Shown one piece after another: positions 27,189-61,920 of a stretch of 64,000 nucleotides of DNA. Source of the DNA: Spartobacteria bacterium LR76. Its GTDB lineage: Bacteria; Verrucomicrobiota; Verrucomicrobiia; Chthoniobacterales; Terrimicrobiaceae. Under the pieces are notes generated by a model. That model saw only the letters and a list, made by a program, of their open reading frames with translations. It was not told the origin of the DNA and made no database searches. The position numbers were made by a program, and so were the translations under genes. Numbering within the stretch: the first letter of the stretch is position 1; each line of letters starts with the position of its first letter. Location: positions 1-64,000 of the forward strand of contig QAYZ01000014.1 in the NCBI GenBank assembly GCA_003054655.1, read 5' to 3'.

Positions 27189-28244
27189 ATGTGTGTTTTC
27201 CAGATGTCGCAGTGGCCGCACGCCCGCTCGTTGGGCCGGGCTGCCCTGGCGATTTTTGCCGCGTTGGTTCTCGCCTCCGGCTCTCTCCGGGCCGCCGACA
27301 CCGCCTCTTTTGATTTCCCGGTCAAGGACTCCACCGAGATCCCCGCCCGGCTGGCCGGGCCGGTGAAGCAGATCGTCTCCTCCGACAGCATCGGGTACAC
27401 GATCTTTGCCCTTCAACCGGCGAATCCCGGCGAGGAAGTCCTCGTCACCGTCGTCTTCGAGGATGGTTCGGAGGGCGGCCCCGCTCTCCTCTGGATTGAC
27501 GACTCCGGCCAGCAGGTCACGCTTTCCTCCAGCCTCTCCGACGGGGTGGAGGGCCGGAACCAGCGCACCGTCGCCATCCCCGTGGCCTCGGCTCTTTCCG
27601 GCGGGAGACTCGTGATCTCCGGCGATCAATCGAGGGTCCTCCGCGTCCGCCTCGACTGGCTCGCTCCGGTCTCCACCCTCGCTGCCGCCGACCAGCGACC
27701 CGGCCGGTATCTGGCGAATGACCGCCTCATCCCGGTCGATGCGGTCAATGGTCAGCCGCCCGTCGCCGAACCCGATGCCTGGATCGGCAAGGTCTACGAG
27801 GCCTTCCTCCAGGAGGAGCCGGCTTCGCTCGATGGAGCCGTCGAGTTTGTCGTTCCCCTCGGCGAGGTCGCCTCCCAGGTGCTGCTCTCCGCCCGCTTTC
27901 TTGGCCTCCCGCTCGACCAGGGTGTCTCCGTGTGGCTGAATGAGAAATACATCGGTGAACTGCGCCCCCAGGTGCCTCCGCTGACCGATGCCGGCTACAT
28001 CGTCGATGAATCCGGCGACTCGTCCTATGCAGGGTGGCGGTCGGGTTCCCTCCTCATCCGCGCCTCCGATCTTTCGCAGGGGGAAAATTCGCTCGTCGTC
28101 TCCACCAGCTCCTCCGGTGTCTACATCCGCGATGCCGCGCTCCAGCTTCGCCCGGCAGCCTCTCCGGCTCCATCCCCAGGCCAGACCGTCTCCGCCGGAG
28201 ACTCCGTCGATCTCGATTCGCAAAACCTCGATCTCTCGCCATAG
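27189..28244 (+). CDS. Exported protein heading the type II secretion operon
   Basis: The 351-residue protein has a signal peptide (cleavage near LRA-ADT; alternative start ATG 27204). Two beta-rich segments follow: one resembling a jelly-roll or carbohydrate-binding fold (FEDGSEGGPALLWIDDSGQQ, RLVISGDQSRVLRVRLDWL) and one with VSVWLNEKYIGELRP and GVYIRDAALQLRP. I do not recognise a named family. It ends in a Pro/Ser-rich tail and is 6 bp upstream of gspG. It may be an accessory periplasmic or surface component of the secretion machine, or a substrate. Confidence 0.65.
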   Translation: MCVFQMSQWPHARSLGRAALAIFAALVLASGSLRAADTASFDFPVKDSTEIPARLAGPVKQIVSSDSIGYTIFALQPANPGEEVLVTVVFEDGSEGGPALLWIDDSGQQVTLSSSLSDGVEGRNQRTVAIPVASALSGGRLVISGDQSRVLRVRLDWLAPVSTLAAADQRPGRYLANDRLIPVDAVNGQPPVAEPDAWIGKVYEAFLQEEPASLDGAVEFVVPLGEVASQVLLSARFLGLPLDQGVSVWLNEKYIGELRPQVPPLTDAGYIVDESGDSSYAGWRSGSLLIRASDLSQGENSLVVSTSSSGVYIRDAALQLRPAASPAPSPGQTVSAGDSVDLDSQNLDLSP

Positions 28245-28250
28245 TTACTC

Positions 28251-28688
28251 ATGAGCTTTCCGTCCTCTTTCCCGTCCTCCCGGTCCTCCCTGCAATCCGG
28301 CTACACGCTGGTGGAGATCATGATCGTGCTCGGCATCATCGCCGTGCTCGCCGGGTCGGCCATCTACATGCTCGTCGGCAGCGTCGATACCGCCAAGGAC
28401 CAGCGCGTCGACTCCGACATCCAGGCCATCAAGCAGCAGCTCAGCCTCTACGAGATGCAAAATTACACCTACCCGACGACCGCCCAGGGCCTCGAGGCGC
28501 TCGTCGTGCGGCCCTCGACCGAACCTGTCCCCCGCAAATGGCGTCAACTCTTGAAAGCCGTGCCTCTCGATCCCTGGGGCACCCCTTACCAGTATGCCTT
28601 TCCGGGCAAGAAAACCCCCGGCGGTTTTGACCTCTACTCCTTGGGACCAGACCGCAAGCCGAGTGAGGATGACGTGCCGAAGAACTAG
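28251..28688 (+). CDS. gspG: Type II secretion major pseudopilin GspG
   Basis: The 145-residue pseudopilin has a short leader and a cleavage/methylation site SG-YTLVEIMIVLGIIAVLAG (Glu at mature +5). The GspG-specific middle follows (DSDIQAIKQQLSLYEMQNYTYPTTAQGLEALV). The C-terminal WGTPYQYAFPGKK and FDLYSLGPD are the calcium-site region of the family. It should form the pseudopilus shaft. No prepilin peptidase gene lies in the window. It overlaps the next gene by 20 bp. Confidence 0.95.
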   Translation: MSFPSSFPSSRSSLQSGYTLVEIMIVLGIIAVLAGSAIYMLVGSVDTAKDQRVDSDIQAIKQQLSLYEMQNYTYPTTAQGLEALVVRPSTEPVPRKWRQLLKAVPLDPWGTPYQYAFPGKKTPGGFDLYSLGPDRKPSEDDVPKN

Positions 28689-29142
28689 GCGCCTCGCAGG
28701 CCGCAGCCGGGCCTTTACCCTCATCGAGGTCATCATCGCCCTGGCGATCATTGCGATCATCTTCGTCGCCCTCATCCCTCTGGCCGCGCCGTCGCTCTCC
28801 GAGCGCAGGCTCCGCCACGCGATGGACGACATCGTGGCCTTCGTCCGCTCCCATCGCCTCGCCGCCGAGTCCGCCGGCAGCGAGGTGTTCATTCAGTGCC
28901 ACTCCGACGGCCTCATGGTGAACCAGAAGTCTCTCGCCGGTCGCGTGGAGATGCCCGACGTGCGAATGTCCATCCGCTTCCCCGGCGGCAAAATGGAGCG
29001 CGCCCACGGGCAGGTATGGCGCATCCTGCCCTGCGGCGTCGTCCTCCCCGCCACCGTGCGTCTGGAGGATGGCGGCTCCTGGCTGGAGGTGGATGTCGAT
29101 CCGCTCACCGGCGACATCCTGGAGGAGCGGTACTCGCTCTAG
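28669..29142 (+). CDS. gspH: Minor pseudopilin, GspH-like
   Basis: The 157-residue protein from ATG 28669 has the prepilin motif RA-FTLIEVIIALAIIAIIFVALI, with Ala instead of the usual Gly at -1, and a beta-rich globular part ending near the stop. Its place after gspG and its size fit GspH. The upstream frame overlaps gspG and is not needed. The assignment by letter is positional. Confidence 0.8.
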   Translation: MTCRRTRRLAGRSRAFTLIEVIIALAIIAIIFVALIPLAAPSLSERRLRHAMDDIVAFVRSHRLAAESAGSEVFIQCHSDGLMVNQKSLAGRVEMPDVRMSIRFPGGKMERAHGQVWRILPCGVVLPATVRLEDGGSWLEVDVDPLTGDILEERYSL

Positions 29143-29148
29143 CTCCAT

Positions 29149-29535
29149 ATGAGCAGGAGGACGTTCTCGAGGGGCTTCACCCTCATGGAGGTGCTGGTCG
29201 CCACGGCCGTCTTTGCCTTCGCCGTGCTCGGGCTGCTCTTTGCCCTCAATGTCACCACCGACGCCGCCCGCGAGACCCTGCGCCAGCAAGCCATCCGCGC
29301 CGAACTGCAAAACCGCCTCGCCCGTCTTTCCGCCCCGCCTTACGTCGCCGGCCGCCAGACCGAGGACCGCGACGGCATCACCTACGCCTCGGAGATCACC
29401 AGCGAGCAGGTCAAGGCCTCCGACCTCACCCTGCTCGGCGGGTATTGGCGCATCCGCGTCACCGCCTCCTGGAAGGAAAACGGCAAAAAATATGAATGGG
29501 ACGTCTCCCATCTCGCCTTCAATGCGAAGCAATAG
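29149..29535 (+). CDS. gspI: Minor pseudopilin, GspI-like
   Basis: The 128-residue protein has the prepilin motif SRG-FTLMEVLVATAVFAFAVLGLLFAL. The T-L-M-E-V-L-V-A form is typical of GspI. The rest is a small globular domain with the segment VKASDLTLLGGYWRIRVTASW. It probably forms part of the pseudopilus tip complex with H, J and K. Its end overlaps gspJ by 14 bp. Confidence 0.85.
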   Translation: MSRRTFSRGFTLMEVLVATAVFAFAVLGLLFALNVTTDAARETLRQQAIRAELQNRLARLSAPPYVAGRQTEDRDGITYASEITSEQVKASDLTLLGGYWRIRVTASWKENGKKYEWDVSHLAFNAKQ

Positions 29536-30157
29536 CCGCCCCGCCGCCTTCACTCTCGTCGAGGTGATCATCGCCATGGTGGTCTTCATGCTGCTCGTGG
29601 GCGGCATCTTCACCGTGGTCGGCGTCTCCACCACCTCCGCCCGCGAGGTCACCGCCATCCGGCTCCAGGGCGCTCGTATTGACTCCCTCCAGACCCTCCT
29701 GCGCTCGATCTTTCTCAATCTCCCCCCCGATGCCCGCATCGACCTGCGCATGCGCGAGGTCAAGGGCGGCGCCGCCGTGGAACTGCTCATCTTTCCCGCG
29801 CCGGATTTCATGGACTTCCAAACCGGCGGCAGCGGGGCGGGCCTCGCCATCGCGGCTCTGCCCGACGGGCGCGGTGCCTGCACCGTCTCCATGGCCAACT
29901 TTCGCTCGCCTGTCGGTGAGGAGCGTGAAAAGGAGATCGCCGCCGCCGCGTGGATTCCGCTCCTGCCCGACGTGCGCTCCGTCCGCTGGAGGTTTGGCCT
30001 GGCCGGCCAGCCGGTCCTCCAGGAGACGTGGGATGCCAACTCGGGCCGCCCCGTCTTTGTGGTTTTTGATCTCGCCCTCACGGATGGGGCGAGGCCGGAG
30101 TTCACCTTCGGCGTTCCCATCCTGACCCAGGGCTCCGCCCGCCCGCCTCGCAACTGA
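29522..30157 (+). CDS. gspJ: Minor pseudopilin, GspJ-like
   Basis: The 211-residue protein from ATG 29522 has the prepilin motif PAA-FTLVEVIIAMVVFMLLVGGIFTVV followed by a long helix and a beta-rich C-terminal domain (RSVRWRFGLAGQPVLQETW). Length and order fit GspJ, the larger tip pseudopilin. Ala at -1 again replaces Gly. Its stop overlaps the gspK start (TGATG). Confidence 0.83.
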   Translation: MRSNSRPAAFTLVEVIIAMVVFMLLVGGIFTVVGVSTTSAREVTAIRLQGARIDSLQTLLRSIFLNLPPDARIDLRMREVKGGAAVELLIFPAPDFMDFQTGGSGAGLAIAALPDGRGACTVSMANFRSPVGEEREKEIAAAAWIPLLPDVRSVRWRFGLAGQPVLQETWDANSGRPVFVVFDLALTDGARPEFTFGVPILTQGSARPPRN

Positions 30158-31071
30158 TGACCTCCCGACCCGACTCCCGGCTCTCGCGCGGCGCGGCGCT
30201 GCTCCTCACCCTCTGGTGCGTCGCCATCGTGGCCATCGTCGTCGTCACGCTCGCCCGCGTGGTCGATGCCGATGTCGATACCGAGAAGGTGCGGGTGAAA
30301 CGCTTCGAGGCCCGCGAACTCGCCCTCTCCGGCATGGCTCATGGGATGAACCCCAAGCTCGAGCGCGACAGCGACTTCTTTCATCACACCGCTCCCTCCG
30401 GCGGCGAATGGCATGTCCGGATCCTCGGAGAGGCCTCCCGCATCAATATCAACACCACCCTGGCCGACCGCGACAGCCCCATCCTGGAGCGTCTCTTTCG
30501 CCTCTGGGGACTCTCCGATGAGGAGGTGCGCGTCGTCACCGATTCCCTCGGCGACTGGGTGGATCGCGATGACCTCGCCCGCCTCAATGGCGCGGAACGG
30601 GAGCAGCTTCTCGACCAGGACCAGTACTCGCTCCCCGGGAATCGCAACTTCCGATCCGTCAATGAGATGGCGCGCGTGCGCGGCATGGACGCCGTGGCCC
30701 GGGTGAAGCCCGACTGGAGGGATTTCTTCACCGTCTACGGCAACGGAAAGATCGACATCCAGGATGCCTCTGCCGACGTGCTGGAGGCCGCCGGATTCAC
30801 CTCCACCCAGGCCGAGGCCATTATCGAGGTGCGCAATGGCGGCGACCGCCTCCCCGGTACGGACGACGATACCAAGATCAAGGATATGAACTGGGTCGCC
30901 GAGGCCGCCGGCATCGGCCCCGACCAGGCCCAGAGCGCCCTTCAGAATTTCCAGCTCACCTCCGAGCCGACCCGGGTCGAAAGTGTTGGCATCATCGGCG
31001 GAACCCGCTACCGCATCACCTCTGTGCTCGACCGCAAGCAGGGCACTCCGTTTAGTTGGGAGGAGGAATGA
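30157..31071 (+). CDS. gspK: Tip pseudopilin GspK-like
   Basis: The 304-residue protein begins with SRGAALLLTLWCVAIVAIVVVTLARVV, the GspK-type N-terminal helix lacking the +5 Glu. It continues with the helical domain characteristic of GspK (DLARLNGAEREQLLDQDQYSLPGNRNFRSVNEMARVRGMD) and a helix-hairpin-helix-like segment (KIDIQDASADVLEAAGFT). GspK caps the pseudopilus with I and J. It overlaps both neighbours by 1-4 bp. Confidence 0.88.
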   Translation: MTSRPDSRLSRGAALLLTLWCVAIVAIVVVTLARVVDADVDTEKVRVKRFEARELALSGMAHGMNPKLERDSDFFHHTAPSGGEWHVRILGEASRININTTLADRDSPILERLFRLWGLSDEEVRVVTDSLGDWVDRDDLARLNGAEREQLLDQDQYSLPGNRNFRSVNEMARVRGMDAVARVKPDWRDFFTVYGNGKIDIQDASADVLEAAGFTSTQAEAIIEVRNGGDRLPGTDDDTKIKDMNWVAEAAGIGPDQAQSALQNFQLTSEPTRVESVGIIGGTRYRITSVLDRKQGTPFSWEEE

Positions 31072-32252
31072 GCAAAAAAGCCACAGGCATCCGCGTCGTG
31101 CGGCCATGGTGCAATGGGTGGGAACGCTGGGAGCTGATCCCATCGTCGCCCGCCGCCGTGCGTCCGCTTGAGCTGGCCGTGGCCGGGGAGGGAGACCTCT
31201 TCGCCGTGCCTGCCCGGCAGGTCGTGGCCGTGCCGTTGTGGCTGGATTCCGACGATCCGGCCGTGGTCGATGCCTCCGTGCTGCTGGAGATGGAGGTGAG
31301 GGGATTTGCCTCCGAGGGCGCTCTGCCCGACGCCGCGGTGCGGCAGATCACCAAGGAAAATGGCCGCACGCTGGTGGTCGTGGCGGTCTTTCCCCCGGAT
31401 TTCGAAAAGCGCTTTCCCGACGTTGCCGCGCAGCGCTACGAGGTGTCTGCCGCCCTGCTTCCCCTCGATGAAGATTCGCTGACGGTGTGGCGGGAGGGCG
31501 GGGAATTCGTTGCGGCCTACACGCGCGGGAGGACGCTGGTGTACTGGACGACCTGGGACGCCGCCGCCACCGGGCGCGAGGTGCAGACCTGGCTGAGATC
31601 CGCCACGCTCGGCCTGCTGGCCTCCGGCGTCATCACCCGCCGCCCGGTTCACGTCGTGGTCGATGACGGCCTCAGTGTTTCTGATCTCGGGTTTGACTTC
31701 ATCCCGGTCGTGCGTCCGCTCGGCCCCCCGGTTCCCGATGCGGCGCAGTGCGGCTGGCGGCCCGCCTCCGCCATCGAGGCGGAGCGGCGCAAGCTCGGTC
31801 GCGCCCGGTTTCGGCGTATCGGGCTGGCTGTCGCTGTCGCCTACGCACTCATCGCTGCCGTCGCGGGCGGGTATCTGGCCTGGCTCCATGTGCAGGCCGC
31901 ACGGCTTTCCGCCGACGTGGACTCGCTCCAGGCGGAGGCCGCGCAGATCCAGCCCATCATTCGCCAGTGGCAATCCGTCGGCTCCAGCATCGACTCGCGG
32001 CGCTTCCCGCTTGAGATCCTGCGCCAGGTCGTCGAGAGCCTGCCGCCGCAGGGCATCCGGCTCACCATCTTTGATGTGACTCCCGAGCGGATCACCGTGG
32101 AGGGCGAGGCGATTTCGGCCTCCCATGCCACCAGATATTTTGAAACCGTCTCCCACCAGGGCGGGATGACCGATATCGACTGGCAGATGCCGCCCCCGGC
32201 CCTCCTGCCCAACAACACCGCGCGATTCCAGATCGTCGGCACCTCCCGATGA
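31068..32252 (+). CDS. gspL: GspL/PilM-PilN-like inner-membrane assembly protein
   Basis: The 394-residue protein from ATG 31068 overlaps gspK by 4 bp. A cytoplasmic actin-like (PilM/GspL-type) N-terminal part precedes a single membrane segment at about residues 250-275 (IGLAVAVAYALIAAVAGGYLAWL). A coiled-coil and a small PilN-like periplasmic ferredoxin-type domain end the protein (GIRLTIFDVTPERITVEGEA). It should link the GspE ATPase to the membrane platform. Confidence 0.78.
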   Translation: MSKKATGIRVVRPWCNGWERWELIPSSPAAVRPLELAVAGEGDLFAVPARQVVAVPLWLDSDDPAVVDASVLLEMEVRGFASEGALPDAAVRQITKENGRTLVVVAVFPPDFEKRFPDVAAQRYEVSAALLPLDEDSLTVWREGGEFVAAYTRGRTLVYWTTWDAAATGREVQTWLRSATLGLLASGVITRRPVHVVVDDGLSVSDLGFDFIPVVRPLGPPVPDAAQCGWRPASAIEAERRKLGRARFRRIGLAVAVAYALIAAVAGGYLAWLHVQAARLSADVDSLQAEAAQIQPIIRQWQSVGSSIDSRRFPLEILRQVVESLPPQGIRLTIFDVTPERITVEGEAISASHATRYFETVSHQGGMTDIDWQMPPPALLPNNTARFQIVGTSR

Positions 32253-32791
32253 GAAAGCTCAGCCCCAGCGAGACCCGCCTCCTCGTCATCTTCGGATGCG
32301 TCATCGCCCTCATCGCCAATCTTTTCGCCCTCCGCTGGTATGTCGGGGCGCGCCGTGCCGCCCTTGAGCGGATCTCCGATCTTCGCTCGATGGGCGCGGA
32401 GTACCGCTCCGTCGTCGCCGAACGCCCCGTCTGGGAGGCCCGCCAGCGCTGGATGGAGGCAAACCCGCCCCAGGCCTACGCCGGATGGCAGACGGAATCC
32501 GCCTTCGCCGAGGACATCCAGAAAAGCCTGCAAAAGGAGGGCATCGCCATTGATTCCCAAAGCCTCCGCGAGTCGCGCCACGAGGGCGATCTCGTCCGCA
32601 TGGAGCTGGAGCTCAGCCTCAAGGCCGATCTCGAGCACATCGTCCGCTGGCTCTATTCCATCCAGCAACCGGGCCGCTATATCGTCATCGAGGAGATGAC
32701 TCTCAAGTGCCTCGACAAGGGCGACACCATGATTGTTCGCTTGCGTGTCACCAGGATCGGAAAGATGGAAGGAGTCGCCAAGTCGTCATGA
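32249..32791 (+). CDS. gspM: GspM/PilO-like inner-membrane protein
   Basis: The 180-residue protein has one N-terminal membrane segment (LLVIFGCVIALIANLFALRW), a coiled-coil and a C-terminal ferredoxin-like domain (LVRMELELSLKADLEHIVRWLYSIQ, then VIEEMTLKCL). This is the GspM/PilO layout that pairs with GspL. It overlaps its neighbours by 4 bp on both sides. Confidence 0.78.
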   Translation: MRKLSPSETRLLVIFGCVIALIANLFALRWYVGARRAALERISDLRSMGAEYRSVVAERPVWEARQRWMEANPPQAYAGWQTESAFAEDIQKSLQKEGIAIDSQSLRESRHEGDLVRMELELSLKADLEHIVRWLYSIQQPGRYIVIEEMTLKCLDKGDTMIVRLRVTRIGKMEGVAKSS

Positions 32792-33399
32792 TCATGCGCC
32801 TTTCCGTGCCGGTCTTCGTTTTTGCAGCGCTCCTCGGCGTCGCCATCGCCCAGGAGCCGGCTGGCTTTGATCCCGGGTCCCGCGAGCTCTCCTACTATCG
32901 GATCATCTGGGAAAAGTCGCCCTTCGTCGCCCGCACCGCGGATACCGCCCCCCAGGGGCCGGCCCTGGCCCAGCGATTTGCGCTCACCGGTCTCGCCACG
33001 CTCGGCGACCGCCAGCTCGTCTTTCTCCTCGACCGCAATACGCTCACCCGCGTCGTCGTCGGCAATGGCAAGGACCAGTCCGGCGTCCAGATCATCTCGA
33101 TTCAGAATCCCGAACGCCTCAAGGAGGCCTCCGTCACCATCCGCCTCGGCAACGAGGAGGCCGCCCTGAAGTACGATCCCGGTGTCGCCCTCGCCGCCAA
33201 TCAATCCGCCCAGCCTGCTCCCGTCGGCCCGGGAGGAGGTCCGCCCGGCGGACCGGGGAATGGTGCCAATTCCAACATCCCGCCGACACCCGGACAGACC
33301 GCCTCGCAAGCCCAGCCCGGCGGCAACCCCCCTCCCGCCAACCGGCAGCTCCGCCGCCGCCTGATTAATTTCGGCAACCAAACCAATACCACCCGATGA
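32788..33399 (+). CDS. GspC/PilP-like periplasmic protein
   Basis: The 203-residue protein from ATG 32788 (or 32794) has a signal peptide (cleavage near IAQ-EPA). A small beta domain (about residues 50-115: FALTGLATLGDRQLVFLLDR, VVVGNGKDQSGVQIISI, ASVTIRLGNEEAALKYDP) follows. The end is a long Pro/Gly/Gln-rich tail. The beta domain follows the pattern of the GspC homology region or PilP, which contacts the secretin. It sits directly before the secretin gene and overlaps both neighbours. The assignment is by pattern and position. Confidence 0.6.
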   Translation: MIMRLSVPVFVFAALLGVAIAQEPAGFDPGSRELSYYRIIWEKSPFVARTADTAPQGPALAQRFALTGLATLGDRQLVFLLDRNTLTRVVVGNGKDQSGVQIISIQNPERLKEASVTIRLGNEEAALKYDPGVALAANQSAQPAPVGPGGGPPGGPGNGANSNIPPTPGQTASQAQPGGNPPPANRQLRRRLINFGNQTNTTR

Positions 33400-35753: not shown

Positions 35754-35756
35754 TCC

Positions 35757-37463: not shown

Positions 37464-37465
37464 CA

Positions 37466-51000: not shown

Positions 51001-54000
51001 ACTCCGGAGCTGACGGCGGCTCTCTTTCCATCAAGGCGCCGATGATCCAGATCGGCGGCCTTGGCGCTGATCCTGATACGCTTCTTCTCCAGCCTTCGTT
51101 CTTTAGTCAAGGAGGGTTCTCCCAATTTAATCTCACGGGCATCGGGCGCCCTGCTGCGACCGCTGCCGCTGCGAGTGTCGTACAGTCCTTCGATCCCGCA
51201 ATCTATGTGGCACCCGGAACCACGATCGCACCATATAGTGAGAGCCTGACCTATGATGCGAGAATCAACGGAGCAACCAGTGACAGCCTCCAGAGGATGG
51301 TAAAGCCGCTCGGTGAGAGGACTCCGGTAAGCATAGGGTTATATTCCCAAACCATTCGCAACGAACTGATCGATCCCGTGACCTCCATCGCAGGCCAGGG
51401 ACTGGTGGTGCGGCGAGGGGATATCGTGATTTCCCAAGGGGTCAAGATCGCCACGGAACCCGGCGGATCCATTACCCTCGACGGATCGACGGTCGCTGTC
51501 TTCGGCAGCCTGATCGCACCCGGTGGGGAGATAACCATCACCGGGGATGATTCCTTCCCGCTGAATTCGGTCGATGCGCAGGCTGCGCTTTTCGCTCGCA
51601 CGACTGTCTATCTGGACTCCTCCGCCCGGCTCTCTGCTGCGGGCGTTGTCGTGCCTTTCAGCGATCCGTATGGACGTCGTATCGGCACCCTGTTTGATGG
51701 AGGTGCCATTTCTGTAAGCGGCAATATTGTTGCGGAGTCCGGGGCGATCCTGGATGTGTCCGGTGCCTCGGCCACGCTGGAATACCATCCCTCCCGTCTG
51801 GGACAGGATATGACATCCCTTGTAAGCGCACGCTCCGGCGTTCTTGCCAAACCTTACGGTTTGCAGGTCGTTGCGGTGAGAGTTGATTCCGACGGCGGTT
51901 CGATCGAGCTGGCTGGAGGACAGATGCTGTATTCCCAGGCGGAGCTATACGGTGCCGCAGGCGGGCCCTCCGCGGCAGGCGGCACTCTGGCGGTGTCTTC
52001 CGGTCGGTTTTACATCAACAACACCACGGACCGTACCTCCTCCGATATCAACCTGATAGTCACCCAGTCTGCCAGCGGCCTTGGGGATGCGCCTCGCGGC
52101 GTGGGGCTGGCCGTCAGCGACCGCTCCGGCTCGGTCCTCGCTGGCATCGGCCGGTTTTCGGTGGATGCTTTTGACCGTGGGGGCTTTGATTCCCTCGACC
52201 TCGGCTTCAACTACGTGGAAGCATCTCCATTTTCCTACGGAGGAAATGTCCGATTCGAGGGAGACGTCAATATCACCGCTCGAGGTTCGCTCCGTGTGGC
52301 CGCAGGCGGCGTCATTGAGGCAACGGGCTCTGTTTCCCTGGCGGCTTCCTATGTCGCGGTGGGCCAGGAGTTCCGGGCTCCGCTCAACCCGAGCGATATC
52401 TATGTGCCCTTTCAGCGCGTAAATCCTGCCGATCCCACCCAGGTGCAGAACTACGGTCTCGCTCCGACAAACGGCTCCGGCAGCCTCCGGATATCGGGCG
52501 ACCTCATCGATATCGGCACCCTCTCGTTGCAAAAGATCGGGAATGCGTCTCTCATTGCCGCGGGTGGAGACATACGTGGCAATGGCACCCTGAATATTGC
52601 TGGCAGCCTCTCGCTCACCGCCGCGCAGGTTTATCCCACCACGCTCGCCGATTTCAAAATCTTCGCCTATGACTCGGCCGCAGGCCCTGGCTCCGTCACC
52701 ATTTCAGCCTCAGGCCGCGCCCAGGCCCCGCTCTCCGGTGCCGGCAACCTGGCGATCTATGCCTCGCAGATCACCCAGAGCGGCGTGCTGCTGGCCCCAT
52801 TTGGAACGATCACTCTCGGATGGGATGGAACGGATCTGGACACCTCCGATGCTGATCTCGACGCTCCCTTCGACATCATTTCCAGGGGTGCCCAGGCCAC
52901 GCCGACCTCCAGCAGTGTCGTTCTTGCCAGCGGCAGTGTGACTTCCGTATCGGGCCTGGACTACTGGACGGGCGAGCAAATCCTCGTGCCGATTGGCCGC
53001 AGCTCGGATGGCTTGTCGATCATCGACGCCCGTGGCATCAATGTCACCGTCTCCGGCCTGCCGGAAAAGCAGGTGCTTATCGCCGGACAGAGTGTGACTA
53101 CCGAGGCTGGCTCCGTGGTCGATCTGCGCGGCGGAGGCGACCTTTTTGCCTACCGCTGGGTGTCTGGCAACGGTGGTACCACCGACGTTCTCGGCGTGGG
53201 CACCACGGAATGGTCCGCAGGGTCATCCTACGAATCAGGTGCCCTGGTGAGCTACGGAGGGAAAACCTGGTCGGCTCGCGTGGCGATCGACCCCGAGGAC
53301 TTTGCTCAAGGTGCTGGTCCCACCCCCGCCACCGGTCGTTATTGGCTTAGCCTCCCGGAGTCGTACGCCATCGTCCCGGGCTATACCAGCGGGTTCGCTC
53401 CCTATTCCGCTTTTAACACCGGCAGCAATTCCGGCCTGCTTGAGGGCGACGCCGGATTCGTGGACCCGGGTCTCGCTACGGGCAGCCAGATCACTCTGCG
53501 CGGCGTGAGCGGACTGCCCGACGGGACATACACGCTTTTGCCCAGCCGGTATGCGCTGCTCCCGGGTGCCTATCTCGTGACGCCGACATCTGATTCGCTG
53601 CGACTCGGCTATGTGAATTCGGAAGGAGCCACCATTACCAGCGGGTTCATTACCAGCAGTTTCAACACCCCGGAGGAGAGCCCCGCCCTGCAAAGCGTGT
53701 TTGAAGTTGTCTCTGCCGACGTCCTTGGCAATCGAGCCCAGTACGAGGTCTTCGATTTGAGCGCGTTCCTTACCGAGGCTGCGGTTCGACTAGGGGTGGA
53801 CGAGGTCCAGCGTCGCCCGGCTGACTCCGGTTATCTCAGCCTGCACGGCAACACCGCGCTCAGTCTTTCCGGCAGCGTTTTATCCAGGCCGACTGCCGAC
53901 GGCGCACGGGGCTCGCGCATCGATATCAGCAGCCTTTCCGACATCACCATCGGCAATATTGCCTCCTCCGGCATCGTGCTGGATCCTGCGGTCCTGAATG

Positions 54001-57000
54001 CCTTCGGGGCCGAAAGCCTCGTGATCGGCGGCCAGCGAAAGTTCTCCGATGACGGCGCGACCTTGACCGTGCGCACCCCGAATATCATCGTGAACAACGC
54101 AGGCGCGCCTCTGGTCGGGTCTGATATCACCCTTGCCGCGCTGAATCAGCTTAGCTTCCTGGCGGGTTCTTCCATCATCGCGAATGGGAGCCGGAGCGAG
54201 GCGGCGGATACCTACCTGCTCACCGGCCGCGGAGCTGCCGTGCGCGTGAGCGTAGACCGTTCCGCCCAGATTTCACGGACGGCGCCCACCAGTTCAAATC
54301 TCGCCCACCTTGTGATTCAGGACGGTGTTTCGATCAGCGGCGCGGCGGCGATCCTGGACTCCAGCTATTCATTTGAGATCGGCCAGGCCGCTTCCCTCAA
54401 CGCAGATACGCTGACATTTGGGGCCGGCCAGATCAGCATCGTGCTGGCCGGTAATCCCGTGCTGGCGGGGTCCACCGTCCCTCAGCATCTTGTCCTTGCG
54501 GGTTCATTGCTGCAAGCCGTTCAGCAGAGCGATTCGCTTACGCTCAAGACTTACCAGAGCAGCATCGACATCTATGGAGACGGTGTGTTTGGCAGTTCGT
54601 CTTCGCTCTCTTTGGAGACAGGCAGCATACGCGGGTTTGGGCAGACGGGCGCAGGTGCGACGCTCCAGACAGGGATATTGCAACTCTCCAACCCTGCCGA
54701 CATCGCTGCCGCCGGGTCGATCATTGCTCCCTCGGGCAGCCTGATCGTCAATGCGGATAACGTCATCCTGGCGGGGGGTGAGATCGCTCTTTCGCAGTTT
54801 GCTAATGTCATAATCAACTCGCGGAGGGGGGTGCTGTTCTCCGGCGATGGAGACCTCGCCGTCGAGAAGGATATCACCATCAACACCCCGGTCCTTGCTG
54901 CAAGCAACGGCGCCGATCAGGGCATCAGCTCCGGAGGGCTTGTTCAGATTAACGATCTGGGCGAGGCCGGAAATGTCAGCAGCGGATTGGGCGCAAGCCT
55001 CGCGATCAAGGGATTGGCGGTTTCTGTGAATTCCGACATCAGCCTGCCCAGCGGCTTGCTCGAGCTGCGAGCCACCGGCGGTGATGTGACGATCGGCGGC
55101 CAGCTTAGCGTCGCAGGCATCACCCAGAGTTTCTATGACACGCAGGCATCGTCGAACGGCGGGACCGTCCGGCTGATCTCCGATACCGGCGATGTTGTTT
55201 TGGCCGCCGGAGGCCATGTCAGCGTGGATTCCCAGGCCGAGGCGGGAGCGATTATCGTCGAGGCCGCCAATGGAGAGTTCCTCTCGCAGGGCACTATTAG
55301 CGGACGCTCTGGGGATGGCCTCCAGGGAGGCGACTTTGCCCTGGATGCGTGGGAGCTTCCTTCCTTCTCCGCGCTGAACACCCTTTTGACATCCGGCGGA
55401 TTCGACGGAACCCAGCAAATCCGTGTGCGCAATGGCAATGTACTGGTTTCTGGCCTTGTCCGTGCCAATGACTTCTCGCTCTCGGCCGACCGGGGATCGA
55501 TCACCGTGGCGGGAACCATCGATGCCAGCGGGTTTACGGGCGGATCGATTGTCCTCTCAGCCAAAGGTGATCTGGTGCTCCTGGCCGGTTCTCTCCTGGA
55601 CGCTTCCGCCCGCTACTTTGATAATGCAGGCAAGGGAGGAAACATCAGGCTCGAGACCCAGAGCGTTCTCGATATCCGCTCCGGATCAGATATCGACTTG
55701 TCCGTTGATGAGTATGTCGCCGGAGGCTACCAGACGCCGGGCAGCAGCGCGTTTTACGGGCAATTCCAAGGAACCCTGCATCTCCGGGCGCCTCGTATCG
55801 GGAATGATGTTGCGATCAACTCCATCCAGGGTCGCATAGAAGGAGCATCCTCCATCCTGGTGGAAGCCTATCGCGTATACGATCGGACGGGTGTCGGCAC
55901 CCTCGACAATACCCTGCGCGATACCATGAATGCGGATAATGCCAGCTTCATGAACGCGGGTTATGCCGCGATGGAGGCGAGATTGCTCAGCGGCAATCCC
56001 AATGTGGGCGATGTCTCTCCCGTCCTCGTCATTGCTCCCGGAGTCGAAATCATCAACACCACCGGCGATCTGGTCCTCGGCACCTCGACCTCAAGCAATA
56101 CGGCGGACTGGAATCTCGCCACCTTCCGATACGGACCCAAGGGAGCGCCGGGTGTGCTCACCCTGCGGGCGGCCGGCGATATTGTTTTCAATAATGCTCT
56201 CAGCGATGGCTTTAACGCCGTGAGCGCCACGGCCGCCAATGGAAACTCCAGCCTCTGGCTGGCGACCCTGATGGCTATCAATTCGGCCCTCCCGATCAAT
56301 ACGCAGTCATGGTCCTACCGCATTGCCTCCGGTGCCGATTTCACCGGGGCGGACTTCCGTTCGTTGCAGTCTGCCGAGGCCCTCATTGCCTCTGGAAAAG
56401 GCTCCGTTATTGTCGGTGAGTTCTATGCCGCCGTGCCAAACACCGCCGCCAACGCGGTCGGGCAGAACGGCCTGACGGCCAACAGCCTCGCCATCACGGG
56501 CAGTGGCTCCCGCACCCGATATGAGGTGGTGCGCACCGGTACGGGATCGATCGATATTGCCGCGGGCATCGACGTCCAGTTGCGCAATCAGTTTGCCACC
56601 ATCTACACTGCGGGCGTCGCTCTCCCCACTCCCACGCAGATCTTCCAGCCGGGCGACTTTGTCGTGCCATTGAACAGGCCTACCGGTCACCCGGCGCAGG
56701 ATCCCATCACCCAGGGAGCCATCCAGCAAGCCTACGCCCCGGTCTATGCCATGGCGGGGGGAGACCTGGCGATCTCGGCCCAGCGCGATATTGGAAGGTT
56801 CACGCTGTATAACGGGGAGATCATCGCGGACAGTTCGCGCCAGCTTCCGACCAACTGGCTCTACCGTCGCGGCTATGTGGATCCCACCACCGGATTGTTC
56901 GGCGTCGGCGGCGTCACCACCAGCTCTCCGACGACGACGTTCAACGACCCGTCCGCCTCGACCACGTGGTGGATCGACTACAGTAATTTCTTCCAGGGCT

Positions 57001-59684
57001 TCGGCGCGCTGGGCGGTGGAAATATCGACCTCTCTGCCAGCCGGGACCTTGTGAATGCCGATGCCGTCATCCCCACCAATGCGCGCATGGCGGGCCGCGA
57101 TCCATCCACCGGCCTCAATATCGCCCCCGATGCCAGCAAGCTGCTCGAGCACGGCGGCGGCGATCTCAGTGTCTACGCTGGCCGCAACATCGACGGCGGC
57201 TCTTTCCTCGTGGAGCGAGGCACGGGAACCTTGTTCGCCGATGGCGACATCACCACAAACTCCGCCCGCTCGATCTCCCGCGGTATTCTCGCCGGGTCCA
57301 CCGCTGAGATCCTCGACCCTCTTACCTGGATGCCTGTCATGCTCTACGGAGGCAAGACCTCCTTCGATGTGACCGCCCGCGGCAACGTCCTCATCGGCCC
57401 CGCGATCAACACCTTCTTCCTCCCGCAGGGATTGAACAACAAATACTGGTACAAGACCCAGTTCAACACGCTCTCCGACGAGGCCTCGCTTTCCGTCACC
57501 TCCTACGGCGGGGATGTTACCCATCGCTTCAGCGTGACCATGCCGGGCGAGCAGCAGGCCATACCGATCCTCTCCGCCTACATGCGGCAGTTTACCATTA
57601 ATGCCGCCTACGCTGCCTACTATCAGCCGTGGATTCGCATGAGCGAGAACCGCCTGTCTTCCTTCCAGACGATCCTGAGTGTCGGCTTCCCGACCCTGCG
57701 CAGCACCGCCTTTATCGGGGACATCAATCTCGTTGGCACCTACAATCTCGCTCCTTCCAGCGTCGGCACGCTCGATCTCCTGGCCGGTGGCAGTATCGTC
57801 GGGCTCCAGCCCTCAGGAAAGACAACCGTCGTCGTCAATGGCGTCAATACCGAGGTTACCGCCTGGACCAGCGCCTCCATCAATGTTTCCGATGCCGACC
57901 CGGACTCTCTGCCCACGATCACGTCTCCGCTCGCCTACCAGGCTCTCGTCGGGCGCGCTCTCCTCAATATCCGCGACTCCCAGGTGGACCCGCTCGGCAC
58001 TGTCTCCCCGGCATTCCGTGAGACAGGCTCCTATTCCGGCGTGAATGCCTCCGTCTCGGTCAAGTCCGCCTTGCACGCCTCCTATCTCCTGCACAGTAAC
58101 GACTCCAACCCGGTTCGCGTCTATGCCACCGGCGGCGACATCACCGGGCTTACGCTGTACTCTCCGAAGTTCAGCCGCATCGTGGCCGATCAGGATATTT
58201 CCGACATTGCCTTCTATCTCCAGAACGTTTCCTCGGAGAATGTCAGCATCGTTTCCGCCGGCAGAGACCTCATCCCGTATAACGAAAATACCGCGATCCG
58301 CTCGATCGCCCGCAATATCGCTCTCTTCAATTACATCGTGGATCCCGCGAGGTCCACGGTCCTTACCGACGCAAATGGTATTGCCATCTCCACCACGACG
58401 CTGCCCGGAGATATTCAGATCGGCGGTCCCGGCTCGCTGGAGATCCTCGCCGGACGAAACTTCGATCTCGGCACCGGCGCAAACTTCACGGATGGCACCG
58501 GCGTCGGCGTCTCCAGCATCGGGCGGTACCGCAACCCGTTCCTGCCCTTTGAGGGGGCCGATCTCTTTGTCATGTCCGGCATTCATTCATCGGACGGAGG
58601 TGCCGCCGTGGGCCTGATGCAGAGCGATCTCGCCATCGAGAGCTTTCTCTCCGCCTATGCCTCCGGCCTGCTCCTCGACGACGGCTATGCCGGCGACGAT
58701 GCCGAGGAGTGGCGGGCCATGGCGGCGATTCGCCTTCTCTTTAGCATTGCTCGCGATGACAGCGGCGGGGCTGAGGCTGATGCCGCGCTCGCCACGCTCA
58801 TGCCGGTCTCCGCTTCATCCTCCTCACGCTCCGCCCGGGAGTATGGCTGGGGACCGTGGCAAAGCCTGGGCGACGCCTTCCCCGACGGCCAGATCTCGAC
58901 ACGAGTCCGGGATATCCGGACCACCAGCGGAGGATCGATTACCATGCTGGCTCCGAGTTCCGGTATTTCCATGGCCCCGGAGATTTATGGAAACCCGCTT
59001 ACTCCTCCCGGCATCGTCACCGAGTACGGAGGCGAGGTTTCGATCTTTATCAACAATGATCTCAATATCGGGCAGGCGCGAATCTTCACTCTTCGCGGCG
59101 GCGATATGACCATCTGGTCCGCCAATGGCAGCATCGCTGCCGGATCGGCTGCCAAGACCGTCGTCAGCGCTCCGCCTACCCGCGTAAGTATCGACTCAAC
59201 CAGCGCGGAAGTGCAGACCGATCTCGGCGGCCTCGCCACTGGCGGCGGTATCGGCGTGCTCGCATCGGTCAAGGATGTCGAGCCTGGCAACGTCTATCTC
59301 ATCGCTCCGCGCGGCGCGGTGGATGCCGGCGATGCGGGTATTCGCGCCACGGGCGACATCAGCGTGGCCGCGCAGACCGTGCTCAATGCCGACAACATTT
59401 CCGCTGCCGGTACGTCGACGGGTGTTCCGGCCACCGCTGCGCCTGCTGCTCCCAATATTGCCGGTCTCACCTCCGGGGCCAGTGCCTCTGCGGCCACCGC
59501 CGCTGCTGCCGCCGACACCGCAAGCAGGTCGCAGCAGAACGCGCCGCCGGAGGAAACCCCGTCGCTTATCACGGTTGACGTTCTTGGCTATGGCGGAGGG
59601 GAGGAGGATTCCGTGCCCGCTCCCGCCTCCCGCCGGGACGGCTCCGAGGATGACGAGAGGCGCCAGGATCAGGCCGCCCTCTAG
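48057..59684 (+). CDS. Giant TpsA exoprotein, filamentous-haemagglutinin family with DUF3739-type end
   Basis: The 3875-residue secreted protein starts at GTG 48057 with an extended signal peptide (hydrophobic residues 17-34). The TPS export domain spans about residues 120-330 and has IRQNEAQAILHWETFNVG, QVYIINQNGIIFGG and TRALVASSLPI. A very long beta-helical body of Gly/Ser/Asp repeats follows. Near residues 1717-1766 a segment (TEWSAGSSYESGALVSYGGK, ending GRYW) looks like a CBM5/12 chitin-binding module. The last 1000 residues resemble the DUF3739 domain (QRDIGRFTLYNGEI, GGGNIDLSASRDLVNADAV). The tail is acidic and hydrophilic, with no anchor. The upstream TpsB should export it; an adhesin or biofilm role is inferred. 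Confidence 0.93.
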   Translation: MKLLRTTIVRRLSRPTGLLIAALCLLALVRLGYAGDILRGGAANIPGKRSGSSATSSASNEAAANVNAAAKDRLARTTAAVNAVKNMQQKAAAAASVPDGLGTGGLKVLEGAGARWTGASLPTQSGTTVNIRQNEAQAILHWETFNVGRQTNLNFDQSKGGSDVGKWVAFNKVFDPSGKPSQILGQINAQGQVYIINQNGIIFGGGSQVNTRALVASSLPINDNLIEQGLLNLSATSPEFLFSAITQGTFVPPTALTTDGRPGAVQVEKGAVIEATVSGDGNGGRVALVGPTVRNSGRITTPAGQTILAAGLQVGFDAHDSADPSLRGLDTYIGAVGSYAGEVVNDGVIEAAAGSITMAGKTLRQNGVIDSVTTVTLNGRIDLQASYNAVPNYSYDPASPSGTTTFLHQDSGSVLFGDGSVTRVLPDLESALTTVGTELPLSSQINVRGRDVYFGADAMMQASSGEVTIQAGTWAPVTVTTSGTEQQITRSGKEFLYNAGNVYLESGAFIDVAGITDVAVPLENSIVTVQLRGNELAVSPLQRDSAVRGTSLVIDLRKIGTYNGRSWIGTPLGDTSAFADVIQRTAGQLSVAGGTIDIEAGGAVIAKRGSILDVSGGYSVMQGGTVKTSRLLVDGNLVSIEDATPDRVYDGIYSGTSTRSHAKWGVSKTYALPLAPEGASMQSDYIEGAAGGTLRITAPTMALDGDLIGRTIDGTRQLRGSDSTSELAPGSSLRLAFEKDGSALFFGDYRRLSPTPPTVTFGQEGAEGGIAEFVEQAESLLAPQRQGSFSLAADFYTRSGFSSVDIENSAGDFELPSGVLIEMPAEGTLAVTSRNARVEGSIRSPGGTISITSYNLSKYAAALLRADNTSQTPDPAGGAGSVLVGSSSRLDVSGSIVDDRVELAGDVLHPIAIKGGSVSLIGYDVELRQGAVIDASGGVYASSGGGMTYGDGGSIKIEAGNDPGFASLLGGRLLLGADLRGYSGADGGSLSIKAPMIQIGGLGADPDTLLLQPSFFSQGGFSQFNLTGIGRPAATAAAASVVQSFDPAIYVAPGTTIAPYSESLTYDARINGATSDSLQRMVKPLGERTPVSIGLYSQTIRNELIDPVTSIAGQGLVVRRGDIVISQGVKIATEPGGSITLDGSTVAVFGSLIAPGGEITITGDDSFPLNSVDAQAALFARTTVYLDSSARLSAAGVVVPFSDPYGRRIGTLFDGGAISVSGNIVAESGAILDVSGASATLEYHPSRLGQDMTSLVSARSGVLAKPYGLQVVAVRVDSDGGSIELAGGQMLYSQAELYGAAGGPSAAGGTLAVSSGRFYINNTTDRTSSDINLIVTQSASGLGDAPRGVGLAVSDRSGSVLAGIGRFSVDAFDRGGFDSLDLGFNYVEASPFSYGGNVRFEGDVNITARGSLRVAAGGVIEATGSVSLAASYVAVGQEFRAPLNPSDIYVPFQRVNPADPTQVQNYGLAPTNGSGSLRISGDLIDIGTLSLQKIGNASLIAAGGDIRGNGTLNIAGSLSLTAAQVYPTTLADFKIFAYDSAAGPGSVTISASGRAQAPLSGAGNLAIYASQITQSGVLLAPFGTITLGWDGTDLDTSDADLDAPFDIISRGAQATPTSSSVVLASGSVTSVSGLDYWTGEQILVPIGRSSDGLSIIDARGINVTVSGLPEKQVLIAGQSVTTEAGSVVDLRGGGDLFAYRWVSGNGGTTDVLGVGTTEWSAGSSYESGALVSYGGKTWSARVAIDPEDFAQGAGPTPATGRYWLSLPESYAIVPGYTSGFAPYSAFNTGSNSGLLEGDAGFVDPGLATGSQITLRGVSGLPDGTYTLLPSRYALLPGAYLVTPTSDSLRLGYVNSEGATITSGFITSSFNTPEESPALQSVFEVVSADVLGNRAQYEVFDLSAFLTEAAVRLGVDEVQRRPADSGYLSLHGNTALSLSGSVLSRPTADGARGSRIDISSLSDITIGNIASSGIVLDPAVLNAFGAESLVIGGQRKFSDDGATLTVRTPNIIVNNAGAPLVGSDITLAALNQLSFLAGSSIIANGSRSEAADTYLLTGRGAAVRVSVDRSAQISRTAPTSSNLAHLVIQDGVSISGAAAILDSSYSFEIGQAASLNADTLTFGAGQISIVLAGNPVLAGSTVPQHLVLAGSLLQAVQQSDSLTLKTYQSSIDIYGDGVFGSSSSLSLETGSIRGFGQTGAGATLQTGILQLSNPADIAAAGSIIAPSGSLIVNADNVILAGGEIALSQFANVIINSRRGVLFSGDGDLAVEKDITINTPVLAASNGADQGISSGGLVQINDLGEAGNVSSGLGASLAIKGLAVSVNSDISLPSGLLELRATGGDVTIGGQLSVAGITQSFYDTQASSNGGTVRLISDTGDVVLAAGGHVSVDSQAEAGAIIVEAANGEFLSQGTISGRSGDGLQGGDFALDAWELPSFSALNTLLTSGGFDGTQQIRVRNGNVLVSGLVRANDFSLSADRGSITVAGTIDASGFTGGSIVLSAKGDLVLLAGSLLDASARYFDNAGKGGNIRLETQSVLDIRSGSDIDLSVDEYVAGGYQTPGSSAFYGQFQGTLHLRAPRIGNDVAINSIQGRIEGASSILVEAYRVYDRTGVGTLDNTLRDTMNADNASFMNAGYAAMEARLLSGNPNVGDVSPVLVIAPGVEIINTTGDLVLGTSTSSNTADWNLATFRYGPKGAPGVLTLRAAGDIVFNNALSDGFNAVSATAANGNSSLWLATLMAINSALPINTQSWSYRIASGADFTGADFRSLQSAEALIASGKGSVIVGEFYAAVPNTAANAVGQNGLTANSLAITGSGSRTRYEVVRTGTGSIDIAAGIDVQLRNQFATIYTAGVALPTPTQIFQPGDFVVPLNRPTGHPAQDPITQGAIQQAYAPVYAMAGGDLAISAQRDIGRFTLYNGEIIADSSRQLPTNWLYRRGYVDPTTGLFGVGGVTTSSPTTTFNDPSASTTWWIDYSNFFQGFGALGGGNIDLSASRDLVNADAVIPTNARMAGRDPSTGLNIAPDASKLLEHGGGDLSVYAGRNIDGGSFLVERGTGTLFADGDITTNSARSISRGILAGSTAEILDPLTWMPVMLYGGKTSFDVTARGNVLIGPAINTFFLPQGLNNKYWYKTQFNTLSDEASLSVTSYGGDVTHRFSVTMPGEQQAIPILSAYMRQFTINAAYAAYYQPWIRMSENRLSSFQTILSVGFPTLRSTAFIGDINLVGTYNLAPSSVGTLDLLAGGSIVGLQPSGKTTVVVNGVNTEVTAWTSASINVSDADPDSLPTITSPLAYQALVGRALLNIRDSQVDPLGTVSPAFRETGSYSGVNASVSVKSALHASYLLHSNDSNPVRVYATGGDITGLTLYSPKFSRIVADQDISDIAFYLQNVSSENVSIVSAGRDLIPYNENTAIRSIARNIALFNYIVDPARSTVLTDANGIAISTTTLPGDIQIGGPGSLEILAGRNFDLGTGANFTDGTGVGVSSIGRYRNPFLPFEGADLFVMSGIHSSDGGAAVGLMQSDLAIESFLSAYASGLLLDDGYAGDDAEEWRAMAAIRLLFSIARDDSGGAEADAALATLMPVSASSSSRSAREYGWGPWQSLGDAFPDGQISTRVRDIRTTSGGSITMLAPSSGISMAPEIYGNPLTPPGIVTEYGGEVSIFINNDLNIGQARIFTLRGGDMTIWSANGSIAAGSAAKTVVSAPPTRVSIDSTSAEVQTDLGGLATGGGIGVLASVKDVEPGNVYLIAPRGAVDAGDAGIRATGDISVAAQTVLNADNISAAGTSTGVPATAAPAAPNIAGLTSGASASAATAAAAADTASRSQQNAPPEETPSLITVDVLGYGGGEEDSVPAPASRRDGSEDDERRQDQAAL

Positions 59685-59691
59685 TTCCCTG

Positions 59692-61920
59692 ATGTCCTCG
59701 ATTCAACGCTTGCGATCTGCGAAAAAGCGGCAGTCGCCATCCCGAGATGCGTCCACATATTTCTGCTCTCTCTGGGAGCGACGGTTGGGCGCAGTCGTGC
59801 TGGTCTTTCTGCTCCTCGGATCGCTGCTGGTGATCTCGGCAGATTCCGTCATGCGCTGGGAGGGCGTGGAAAGACTCTCCCGGCAGTATTTCTCCGATGT
59901 GCCTCCGGGCAGCATGCCGGTTTCACCTGGCGCATTTGAGCGTCGGCTCGTTCTTCCCTTTTCCTCGATGGATGCGCGCTGGTGGGTGCTGCATACCGAG
60001 GAGGCGATTCGGGACGGGTCGCTTCGCGTCAGGTCCACCTCGCTGGACAATGCGCCCTTCGGTCGCGAGGTGCACTGGAGTTCATTGTTGGTCTGGGTGC
60101 TGGATACACTCGCTCACTTCCTGGGCTGGGAGAGCGGACGTCCCGCCGCCTCCTGTGTCGCCGATGCAGCTCTCTATGCCGGGCCGCTGCTGCTGGCGGC
60201 CGCAATCCTCTTGCTCGGCGGCCTCGCGGCGAAGCGGTTTGGGATTTCCGCCGCGGGCTGGTTCATTCTGGTCTGGATCACCTCCGTGCCCTTGTATCTG
60301 ACATTTCAGGCGGGAGAGGCGGATCATCATGGGATTGTGCTCACGTTTCTTGCCGGGCAGTCCCTGTGTCTGCTGGCGGGCGTGGCTCCCGATCGGTATT
60401 CCCGGCTCCTTCCTTTCGAGGTGGCGCGTCGCTGGTTTGGACTGGCGGGCATCCTCGGGGGACTGGCCCTTTGGGTGAGCGCGGCGACAGCCCTTCCCGC
60501 CATCCTCGGCTGCGGCCTCGGCGCCCTCGCCCGGGCCTTCCTGGTCAGGAGCGAGCAAAGGCAATACTCCAGTCTGTGGCTGGTGTGGAGCGGGTGCGGA
60601 GCGCTCACCGGATTTTTATTCTACCTCGTGGAGTATTTTCCGGATCACCTGGGCTGGCGTCTGGAGGTCAACCATCCGTTGTATTCGCTCGCCTGGCTCG
60701 GCGGGGGATATGTGCTGCAGTGTGCTTCCGCCGTCCTGCGGGGAGAAAGCGTGTTGCCTCGCGGCTGCCGCCTGATTCTGCTCTGCCTGGCGTTTTGCGC
60801 GGTCCTACTGCCCGTCCTTCTCATTTTACTCCGTCCTGGCGACACCTTCTGGGTCGCGGACAGGTTCCTTCTGGCTCTGCACCGCGAGTATATCCAGGAG
60901 ATCCGCTCGCTCTGGGTCACGGTGCGAAACTCGACCAGCTCTCTGGCCTTGCTGAACTACCTCGCCTGGCCTGTCTTTGCCGTCCTCTCCCTGGTCTGGC
61001 TATGGTGGCGGCGGGAGCTGTCGGGCATGGTCCGCGGGGCGCTCGTGCTCACGGTATTGCCTGCTCTTGTTCTGCAGGGACTGACCTTTATGCAGGTGCG
61101 CTGGGCCTCTGCCTCGCTGGGTTTGTGGGCGGTTGTCATCCTGGCCGTCGTGGTTGCATCGCGATGCCGCACGGGAGCCCCCGTCATCGTGCGCTGGGGG
61201 CTGCCGCTCGTCGCGGCCGTTTCGATCCTGCTCGCTCTCTTCCCGCAGCTTGCGCTCTCCGTCACCCGCTCGCAGATGGACTTCAAGGCAAAGTTCAACC
61301 CCGAGGACGGCTCCGGCCTCCTCGTCCGCGACATCGCGGTGAGGCTGGTCCAAAGCTCGCCCCACTCCCTCCCGGTCGTCCTCTCGGGACCGAATTCCTC
61401 CACCGATCTCTCCTATTCCGCCGGGATCAAGACCATCGGGACCCTGTATTGGGAGAATATGCCGGGCCTCAAGCGCGCCGCGCGGATTTTCTCGGCGACG
61501 GACGGGGAGGATGCCCGCAGGCTTCTCATCGAGTCTGGCGTTACGCACATCGTCCTTCCCGCATGGGACAACTTTGCCGAGGCCTACGCCCGGCTGCTGC
61601 GGGAGTCCGGGGATGCCGCCGGCGATGTGGATATCCCGTTCTTCCGAGCCATCGTGGAGGGCCGGGAGTGCCCCCAGTGGTTGCGTCCGCTTTGCTATCC
61701 CATCCCCACCGCATCCGGCGTCGATACCAAATCGGTCAAGATCTTTGCCGTCATGCCAGACCAGGGCCGGTTTGATTCCTTTTTCTATCGCGGGGTCTAC
61801 CATGCCGAGGCCGGGGAATACGCCAGGGCCGCCGCCATGTTCGATCTCGCCCTGGCCGAGAACCCCGCCCATGAAGAGGCGCGCCGCTTCCGCGACTGGG
61901 CCCGCTCTCAGGCACAGTAA
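59692..61920 (+). CDS. Membrane glycosyltransferase, STT3/PglB-like GT-C fold
   Basis: The 742-residue protein from ATG 59692 has a basic N-terminus, about 12 membrane segments and an extracytoplasmic C-terminal part. The first loop reads RSTSLDNAPFGREVHWSSLL, like the bacterial STT3-related pattern NPP.G..HW. A later loop has GEADHHGIVLTF, like the (D/E)xDHH motif of STT3. The end (YARAAAMFDLALAENPAHEE) is TPR-like. It starts 8 bp after the giant adhesin gene, so glycosylation of the adhesin or a polymer ligase role is inferred. A GT39-type transferase is the alternative. Confidence 0.65.
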   Translation: MSSIQRLRSAKKRQSPSRDASTYFCSLWERRLGAVVLVFLLLGSLLVISADSVMRWEGVERLSRQYFSDVPPGSMPVSPGAFERRLVLPFSSMDARWWVLHTEEAIRDGSLRVRSTSLDNAPFGREVHWSSLLVWVLDTLAHFLGWESGRPAASCVADAALYAGPLLLAAAILLLGGLAAKRFGISAAGWFILVWITSVPLYLTFQAGEADHHGIVLTFLAGQSLCLLAGVAPDRYSRLLPFEVARRWFGLAGILGGLALWVSAATALPAILGCGLGALARAFLVRSEQRQYSSLWLVWSGCGALTGFLFYLVEYFPDHLGWRLEVNHPLYSLAWLGGGYVLQCASAVLRGESVLPRGCRLILLCLAFCAVLLPVLLILLRPGDTFWVADRFLLALHREYIQEIRSLWVTVRNSTSSLALLNYLAWPVFAVLSLVWLWWRRELSGMVRGALVLTVLPALVLQGLTFMQVRWASASLGLWAVVILAVVVASRCRTGAPVIVRWGLPLVAAVSILLALFPQLALSVTRSQMDFKAKFNPEDGSGLLVRDIAVRLVQSSPHSLPVVLSGPNSSTDLSYSAGIKTIGTLYWENMPGLKRAARIFSATDGEDARRLLIESGVTHIVLPAWDNFAEAYARLLRESGDAAGDVDIPFFRAIVEGRECPQWLRPLCYPIPTASGVDTKSVKIFAVMPDQGRFDSFFYRGVYHAEAGEYARAAAMFDLALAENPAHEEARRFRDWARSQAQ

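Follow-up and report, generated by a model that had tools for sequence, protein, structure and literature searches.

Does a type II secretion system (T2SS) that stands directly upstream of a Pdt-like two-partner secretion (TPS) unit in a verrucomicrobial genome belong with it to a common response to phosphate starvation, or do two ordinary export machines merely abut? The locus occupies positions 27189-61920 of the window, i.e. the whole stretch of 64,000 nucleotides that was analysed (G000:C9:1-64000), from the 4.75 Mb genome of Spartobacteria bacterium LR76 (G000). Gene content, gene order, descent, upstream boxes and a link of these boxes to pstS together make it probable that the locus is a secretion island for phosphate starvation that came together within a single verrucomicrobial genus, of which three genomes were sampled (G000, G001 and G002).

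The direct joining of the two systems, reported with its coordinates by a first-pass annotation of this DNA, was confirmed by Pfam profiles. The T2SS operon (27189-38698), assigned by Pfam and by position, encodes X27, GspG-H-I-J-K-L-M, a GspC-like protein and GspD-E-F, and with GspD, GspE, GspF, GspG and the minor pseudopilins in one operon it qualifies as a T2SS. On the same strand and 3' of it, positions 39189-59684 hold tpsB-exbB-exbD-tonB-Porin_5-coiled coil-ppiC-tpsA (Pfam). This gene set and order, and the TPS domain and DUF3739 read in TpsA, are those expected of a Pdt-type unit.

Both operons are preceded by a GTNAC-N6-GTNAC direct repeat with an 11-bp period, which occurs in the window at 27086, 39125, 61927 and 15464 (shuffled windows average 0.1). 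On the + strand, the pattern search placed GTTACAATCTTGTCAC before the T2SS operon (27086..27101) and GTTACAAAACCGTAAC before tpsB (39125..39140), and a third repeat, conserved in G001, precedes the Sel1 gene at 61980-62879 (61927..61942). The Pho-like boxes suspected at first pass are therefore real, and they are tied to phosphate uptake by a box 70 bp before pstS in G000, conserved in G002; an 11-bp direct repeat common to a pst gene and the island is a mark of a Pho regulon. A stricter pattern, GTNACNAWNNYGTNAC, gives 14 strand matches in G000, or about 11 distinct sites, against 3 for the control; three of the sites fall in this 35 kb. Further boxed genes of G000 encode an OprB porin (70 bp) and a divergent pair of LMWPc/ArsC-like protein and ABC ATPase; the divergent box between the latter two genes (L274 / L258) is a possible phosphate/arsenate link.

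Before tpsB, the box was found in 13 of 23 loci (10/12 in the family; shuffle mean 0.095, maximum 2), with the consensus tTGTKACRAAWYYGTAACa, and within the TPS unit of these 23 loci it precedes no other gene. Boxes also precede tpsA genes in G026 and G006, and in G006 the same box also stands upstream of an extra tpsA-like gene (L296, G006:C5:9019) that lies apart from the TPS unit. Before the T2SS, GTTACAATCTTGTCAC is an identical 16-mer in all three genomes of the genus, with diverged flanks, and a search of 381 kb, from 20 further T2SS loci in the order, found no box outside the genus.

The TPS unit is much more widespread than its linkage to a T2SS. Full-length Porin_5 is found in about 25 verrucomicrobial genomes besides G000, all in the window's class, and fetched loci of sufficient extent keep the order tpsB-exbB-exbD-tonB-porin-coiled coil, with PpiC or TpsA sequence next; in one of the loci (L081), tonB was not detected in the unit. 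Nearly all genomes of the order possess a T2SS, on other contigs than the TPS unit, and it lies upstream of the unit only in the genus of the window; judged from GspG positions, the two do not occur together outside the genus in the verrucomicrobial genomes examined. Adjacency unique to one genome, which the first-pass annotation had named as a refutation, is thus not what was found, since all three genomes share it, yet it is confined to one genus in the sampled phylum.

The combination was also looked for in other phyla, and the linkage recurs in Pseudomonadota. Thirteen genomes of this phylum with the porin came from about 400 that were drawn evenly, the centre genome being excluded, and in six of them (G369, G444, G505, G652, G710, G743) GspG is linked within 40 kb; chance linkage is about 2-3% per genome, as estimated from genome size for genomes that are not fully independent. 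The other seven comprise one without a T2SS, three with the T2SS on other contigs and three cut by contig edges. Named linked cases are Pseudomonas spelaei, P. chlororaphis, Halopseudomonas pelagia, a Halomonas metagenome-assembled genome (MAG) and the Cupriavidus plasmid NZ_CP017750, and several fluorescent Pseudomonas have the unit without T2SS linkage. Genes for PBP_like_2 (PstS/LapA-like) proteins adjoin the TPS genes of Methylosinus and Methylomagnum and occur within the clusters of P. chlororaphis, G369 and G505, the G369 cluster also holds a PhoB-like response regulator, and VreI/VreR-type sigma/FecR genes stand beside the Methylosinus and Klebsiella units. The Klebsiella units are plasmid-borne (L152, NZ_CP084804; L148, NZ_CP065459); L152 lies on a conjugative plasmid and has in addition a LysR gene and a receptor/sigma/FecR set like VreAIR, which makes it almost the P. 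aeruginosa locus, Hxc excepted. A MAG titled Gemmatimonadetes (L184, PAQK01000084.1) contains a Pseudomonas-like Pdt unit and is probably mislabelled or contaminated.

Phylogeny places both systems with their own lineage. In the GspE tree, the window groups with its genus and next with G032 from a different family (98/93); all lie in a verrucomicrobial clade (100/100) that is separate from every Pseudomonadota T2SS. GspE proteins of the linked P. chlororaphis, P. spelaei, Halopseudomonas, Halomonas, Cupriavidus, G444 and G743 form a separate clade, while G369 with G710, and G505, stand apart in placements that long branches make uncertain, as they do for the PilB outgroups. In the TpsB tree, the window groups with G006 (92/77) within the family clade (100/100), and a Methylosinus plasmid unit is the only intruder in the verrucomicrobial part. 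GspD is about 23-29% identical to the linked Pseudomonadota loci versus 42-55% in most of the order. Another genome of the genus encodes the Verru_Chthon cassette protein A (E 3e-241), as fits a member of the Verrucomicrobiota. Judged from the trees, the two systems are verrucomicrobial versions passed down vertically, and because GspE and TpsB each branch with their own lineage, the event that joined them in this genus was local and independent. The first-pass ideas of an Hxc-like T2SS by descent and of two systems spreading together consequently do not hold here: given vertical descent and the fact that no further verrucomicrobial genome examined shows linkage, the T2SS appears to have joined the already boxed TPS unit once, in this genus.

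Several observations weigh against a phosphate-starvation island. Adjacency limited to one genus may be a coincidence, with a chance of about 8% by a rough estimate over roughly a dozen genera. The box fits the 11-bp tandem form only and not the E. coli letters, the pstS box is seen only within the genus, with a weak PstS-like match elsewhere (L309), and co-regulation would depend on a putative PhoB-type regulator acting through the box. No gene for a phosphatase or for a PBP, the LapA-like kind of substrate, turned up among the genes annotated in the island, where the first-pass annotation had advised looking for an alkaline phosphatase or other T2SS substrate.

The rival that survives best, though unlikely, sees two ordinary vertically inherited systems abutting in one genus, with the T2SS not coupled to the phosphate-controlled TPS unit. 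That no further verrucomicrobial genome with the unit shows the linkage, and that the order's T2SS operons elsewhere lack a box, agrees with it, but the T2SS has its own box of 16 identical bases in 3/3 genomes, and the same linkage in Pseudomonadota is far above chance. Adjacency alone would be weak evidence; coupling is the better reading because the T2SS box is conserved and newly gained and because the joining recurs in Pseudomonadota.

Somewhat less probable still is that the box serves another OmpR-type regulator, of envelope or general stress, rather than PhoB. Its letters are unlike CTGTCAT, and the boxed Sel1, PEP-CTERM and ABC ATPase genes are not obvious phosphate genes; however, in two genomes the box stands 70 bp before pstS, an ArsC-like gene has one too, the spacing is 11 bp, and it is known that the Pho box differs in its letters from species to species (PMC4415409). 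A search with the E. coli-type Pho box pattern gave matches at chance level only, and the repeat is for this reason best described as a variant of the Pho box. That this lineage and Pseudomonadota exchanged an Hxc/Pdt island horizontally is very improbable, since, despite the similar gene set and linkage and a Methylosinus (alphaproteobacterial) plasmid unit inside the verrucomicrobial TpsB clade showing that TPS units do move, the strongly supported GspE and TpsB placements contradict a joint transfer and the GspD identities speak against it.

The genes of the T2SS operon, all on the + strand, vary in how closely they resemble known components. X27 (27189..28244), a signal-peptide protein with no recognisable fold and no Pfam or PDB profile match, has same-place orthologs in T2SS operons across the order and is the first T2SS gene in several of its families. 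Pfam reads four N-methyl pseudopilins: the major pseudopilin GspG (28251..28688) scores above cut-off with PF08334 (T2SSG) and TIGR01710, and the GspH-like (28636..29142), GspI-like (29149..29535) and GspJ-like (29510..30157) pseudopilins were assigned by N_methyl motif and position. They are followed by GspK (30157..31071; PF21687, T2SSK), a GspL-like protein (31068..32252; position and orthologs in the order's T2SS operons, a weak PilN match only and no Pfam match), GspM (32249..32791; T2SSM_b) and a GspC-like small periplasmic protein (32785..33399), assigned by position and by orthologs in the order only, with no Pfam match. The secretin GspD (33396..35753; PF00263, Secretin_N, GspD N0) has TIGR02517 as its best match, below cut-off; GspE (35757..37463) is an ATPase with PF00437 (T2SSE) and MshEN, placed also by the tree, and GspF (37460..38698) matches PF00482 (T2SSF). 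For GspD, GspE and GspF a T2SS model is the best NCBIfam match, and because all three score below the equivalog cut-offs, in contrast to GspG, they are, by profile comparison, divergent T2SS members. A small secreted protein without Pfam match (38698..39099) is found otherwise in L070 and L072 only and is thus confined to the genus. A prepilin peptidase gene was not seen in the cluster. This T2SS is the only one of G000, which has one strong GspG and whose remaining secretins match in the C-terminal part only.

The TPS unit, likewise on the + strand, begins with a PdtB-type TpsB (39189..40871; ShlB and POTRA_2, tree), a DUF2341-LamG-MotA_ExbB fusion (40881..42704; Pfam), ExbD (42709..43110; Pfam) and TonB (43117..43815; TonB_2). 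A Porin_5 outer-membrane protein of the PA0696 type (43821..46511; E 3e-185) precedes a periplasmic coiled coil of the PA0697 type (46511..47185), which has homologs in Pseudomonas units and a predicted structure of a single helix of ~140 residues, and a PA0699-type parvulin with a PpiC rotamase domain (47166..48041; Pfam). TpsA (48057..59684; 3875 aa) carries the TPS domain and is the one DUF3739 protein of G000; it would be secreted via TpsB. The tpsA of G002 (L283 8220-19619) is 45% identical to that of the window, its neighbours being 90-100% identical, so the passenger may be either fast-evolving or swapped in that genome. An apparent second TPS copy with an absent tpsA in G002 was an assembly-end effect, the first 7.9 kb of C3 being a 100% copy of C2 and tpsA lying on C3.

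The last gene of 27189-61920, ending at 61920, encodes a membrane protein with tetratricopeptide repeats (TPR) and stands outside the conserved unit. Its product (59275-61920) is large and multi-membrane with a C-terminal TPR part, the membrane part has no Pfam match, and it is possibly a glycosyltransferase; the gene is retained after tpsA in G001 and was not found beside tpsA in G002. Genes for a Fic-domain protein (22281-23381) and a chromate transporter (25721-27043) upstream are ordinary neighbours, and downstream the Sel1-repeat gene is followed by a PEP-CTERM gene (63025-63930), a homolog of which is preceded by a box in G002.

Co-regulation of the T2SS and the TPS unit is well supported at the sequence level by the shared boxes, and a history of the island can be proposed in which the Pdt-type TPS was already under a PhoB-type box in ancestors of the order, and the genome's only T2SS later came to stand upstream of it and acquired the same box before its operon. 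At low phosphate, a PhoB-like regulator would bind the 11-bp tandem repeats and switch on both operons and pstS. The T2SS would then export folded scavenging enzymes; TpsB, aided by PpiC and the coiled coil in the periplasm, would thread the giant TpsA to the surface, and ExbB-ExbD-TonB would power the outer-membrane step through the TpsB or Porin_5 barrel. A second, independent T2SS-Pdt joining under a phosphate box, together with the repeats in Pseudomonadota, suggests that these two machines came under phosphate control independently in distant phyla and that they act jointly, a function that is testable by comparison. More tentatively, the two may form one functional scavenging device under phosphate starvation, e.g. 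with phosphatases exported by the T2SS, held at the surface by TpsA and fed to the TonB/ExbBD-linked porin; unrelated lineages would on this view have brought the two systems together repeatedly, and the sole T2SS of this genus would have been captured into its Pho regulon. The locus also offers a clear example of an entire secretion system that seems to have entered a starvation regulon via one upstream box beside a boxed neighbour.

A literature search found no publication linking T2SS and TPS to phosphate in Verrucomicrobia. The T2SS of Caulobacter adjoins the phosphate-starvation gene ElpS (PMC2996285), an arrangement that resembles the one described here, but no TPS unit is described there. 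Both systems lie within 5-40 kb of each other in Cupriavidus, the Halomonas MAG, H. pelagia, P. chlororaphis, G369, G710 and G505, in a gene order that differs from that of the window.

The Hxc T2SS with its substrate LapA resembles the window's T2SS in standing beside a Pdt unit and in its phosphate-type boxes; the box that it shares with pstS may or may not reflect PhoB control of the Hxc kind. The window's T2SS differs in belonging to another T2SS clade, in that its GspE does not group with Hxc-type GspE (the linked P. chlororaphis and P. spelaei T2SS lie elsewhere), and in having no LapA/PstS-like neighbour. It is also the sole T2SS of its genome, unlike in P. aeruginosa, which has the Xcp T2SS too. 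The Hxc secretin HxcQ has an N-terminal lipid anchor (PMC2996285), whereas the N-terminus of the window's GspD, MRSLLAALAFSLLASWAMAQ, contains zero cysteines and the secretin is not a lipoprotein.

The closest likeness is to the Pdt locus of P. aeruginosa, whose gene order was taken from the literature: pdtA-phdA-pdtB-exbB2-exbD2-tonB4-PA0696 (porin)-PA0697-PA0698 (YbjN)-PA0699 (PpiC), beside hxc (PMC7035377). There, VreI, which is under PhoB, controls hxc and pdt together, and little is known of what the PdtA unit and its ExbBD-TonB-porin genes do (PMC7035377). In the window, tpsA is the last and not the first gene, phdA and the YbjN gene are missing, and VreAIR sigma/anti-sigma genes (VreI/VreR) were not found among the genes of the cluster. 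The two loci share the order tpsB-exbB-exbD-tonB-porin-coiled coil-PpiC, a giant TpsA and probably phosphate-type control, and the window's TpsB is about 36-39% identical to Pseudomonas homologs. The Hxc/Pdt gene set with exbB2, exbD2 and PpiC that the first-pass annotation had given for P. aeruginosa is correct (PMC7035377), and the window matches it gene for gene.

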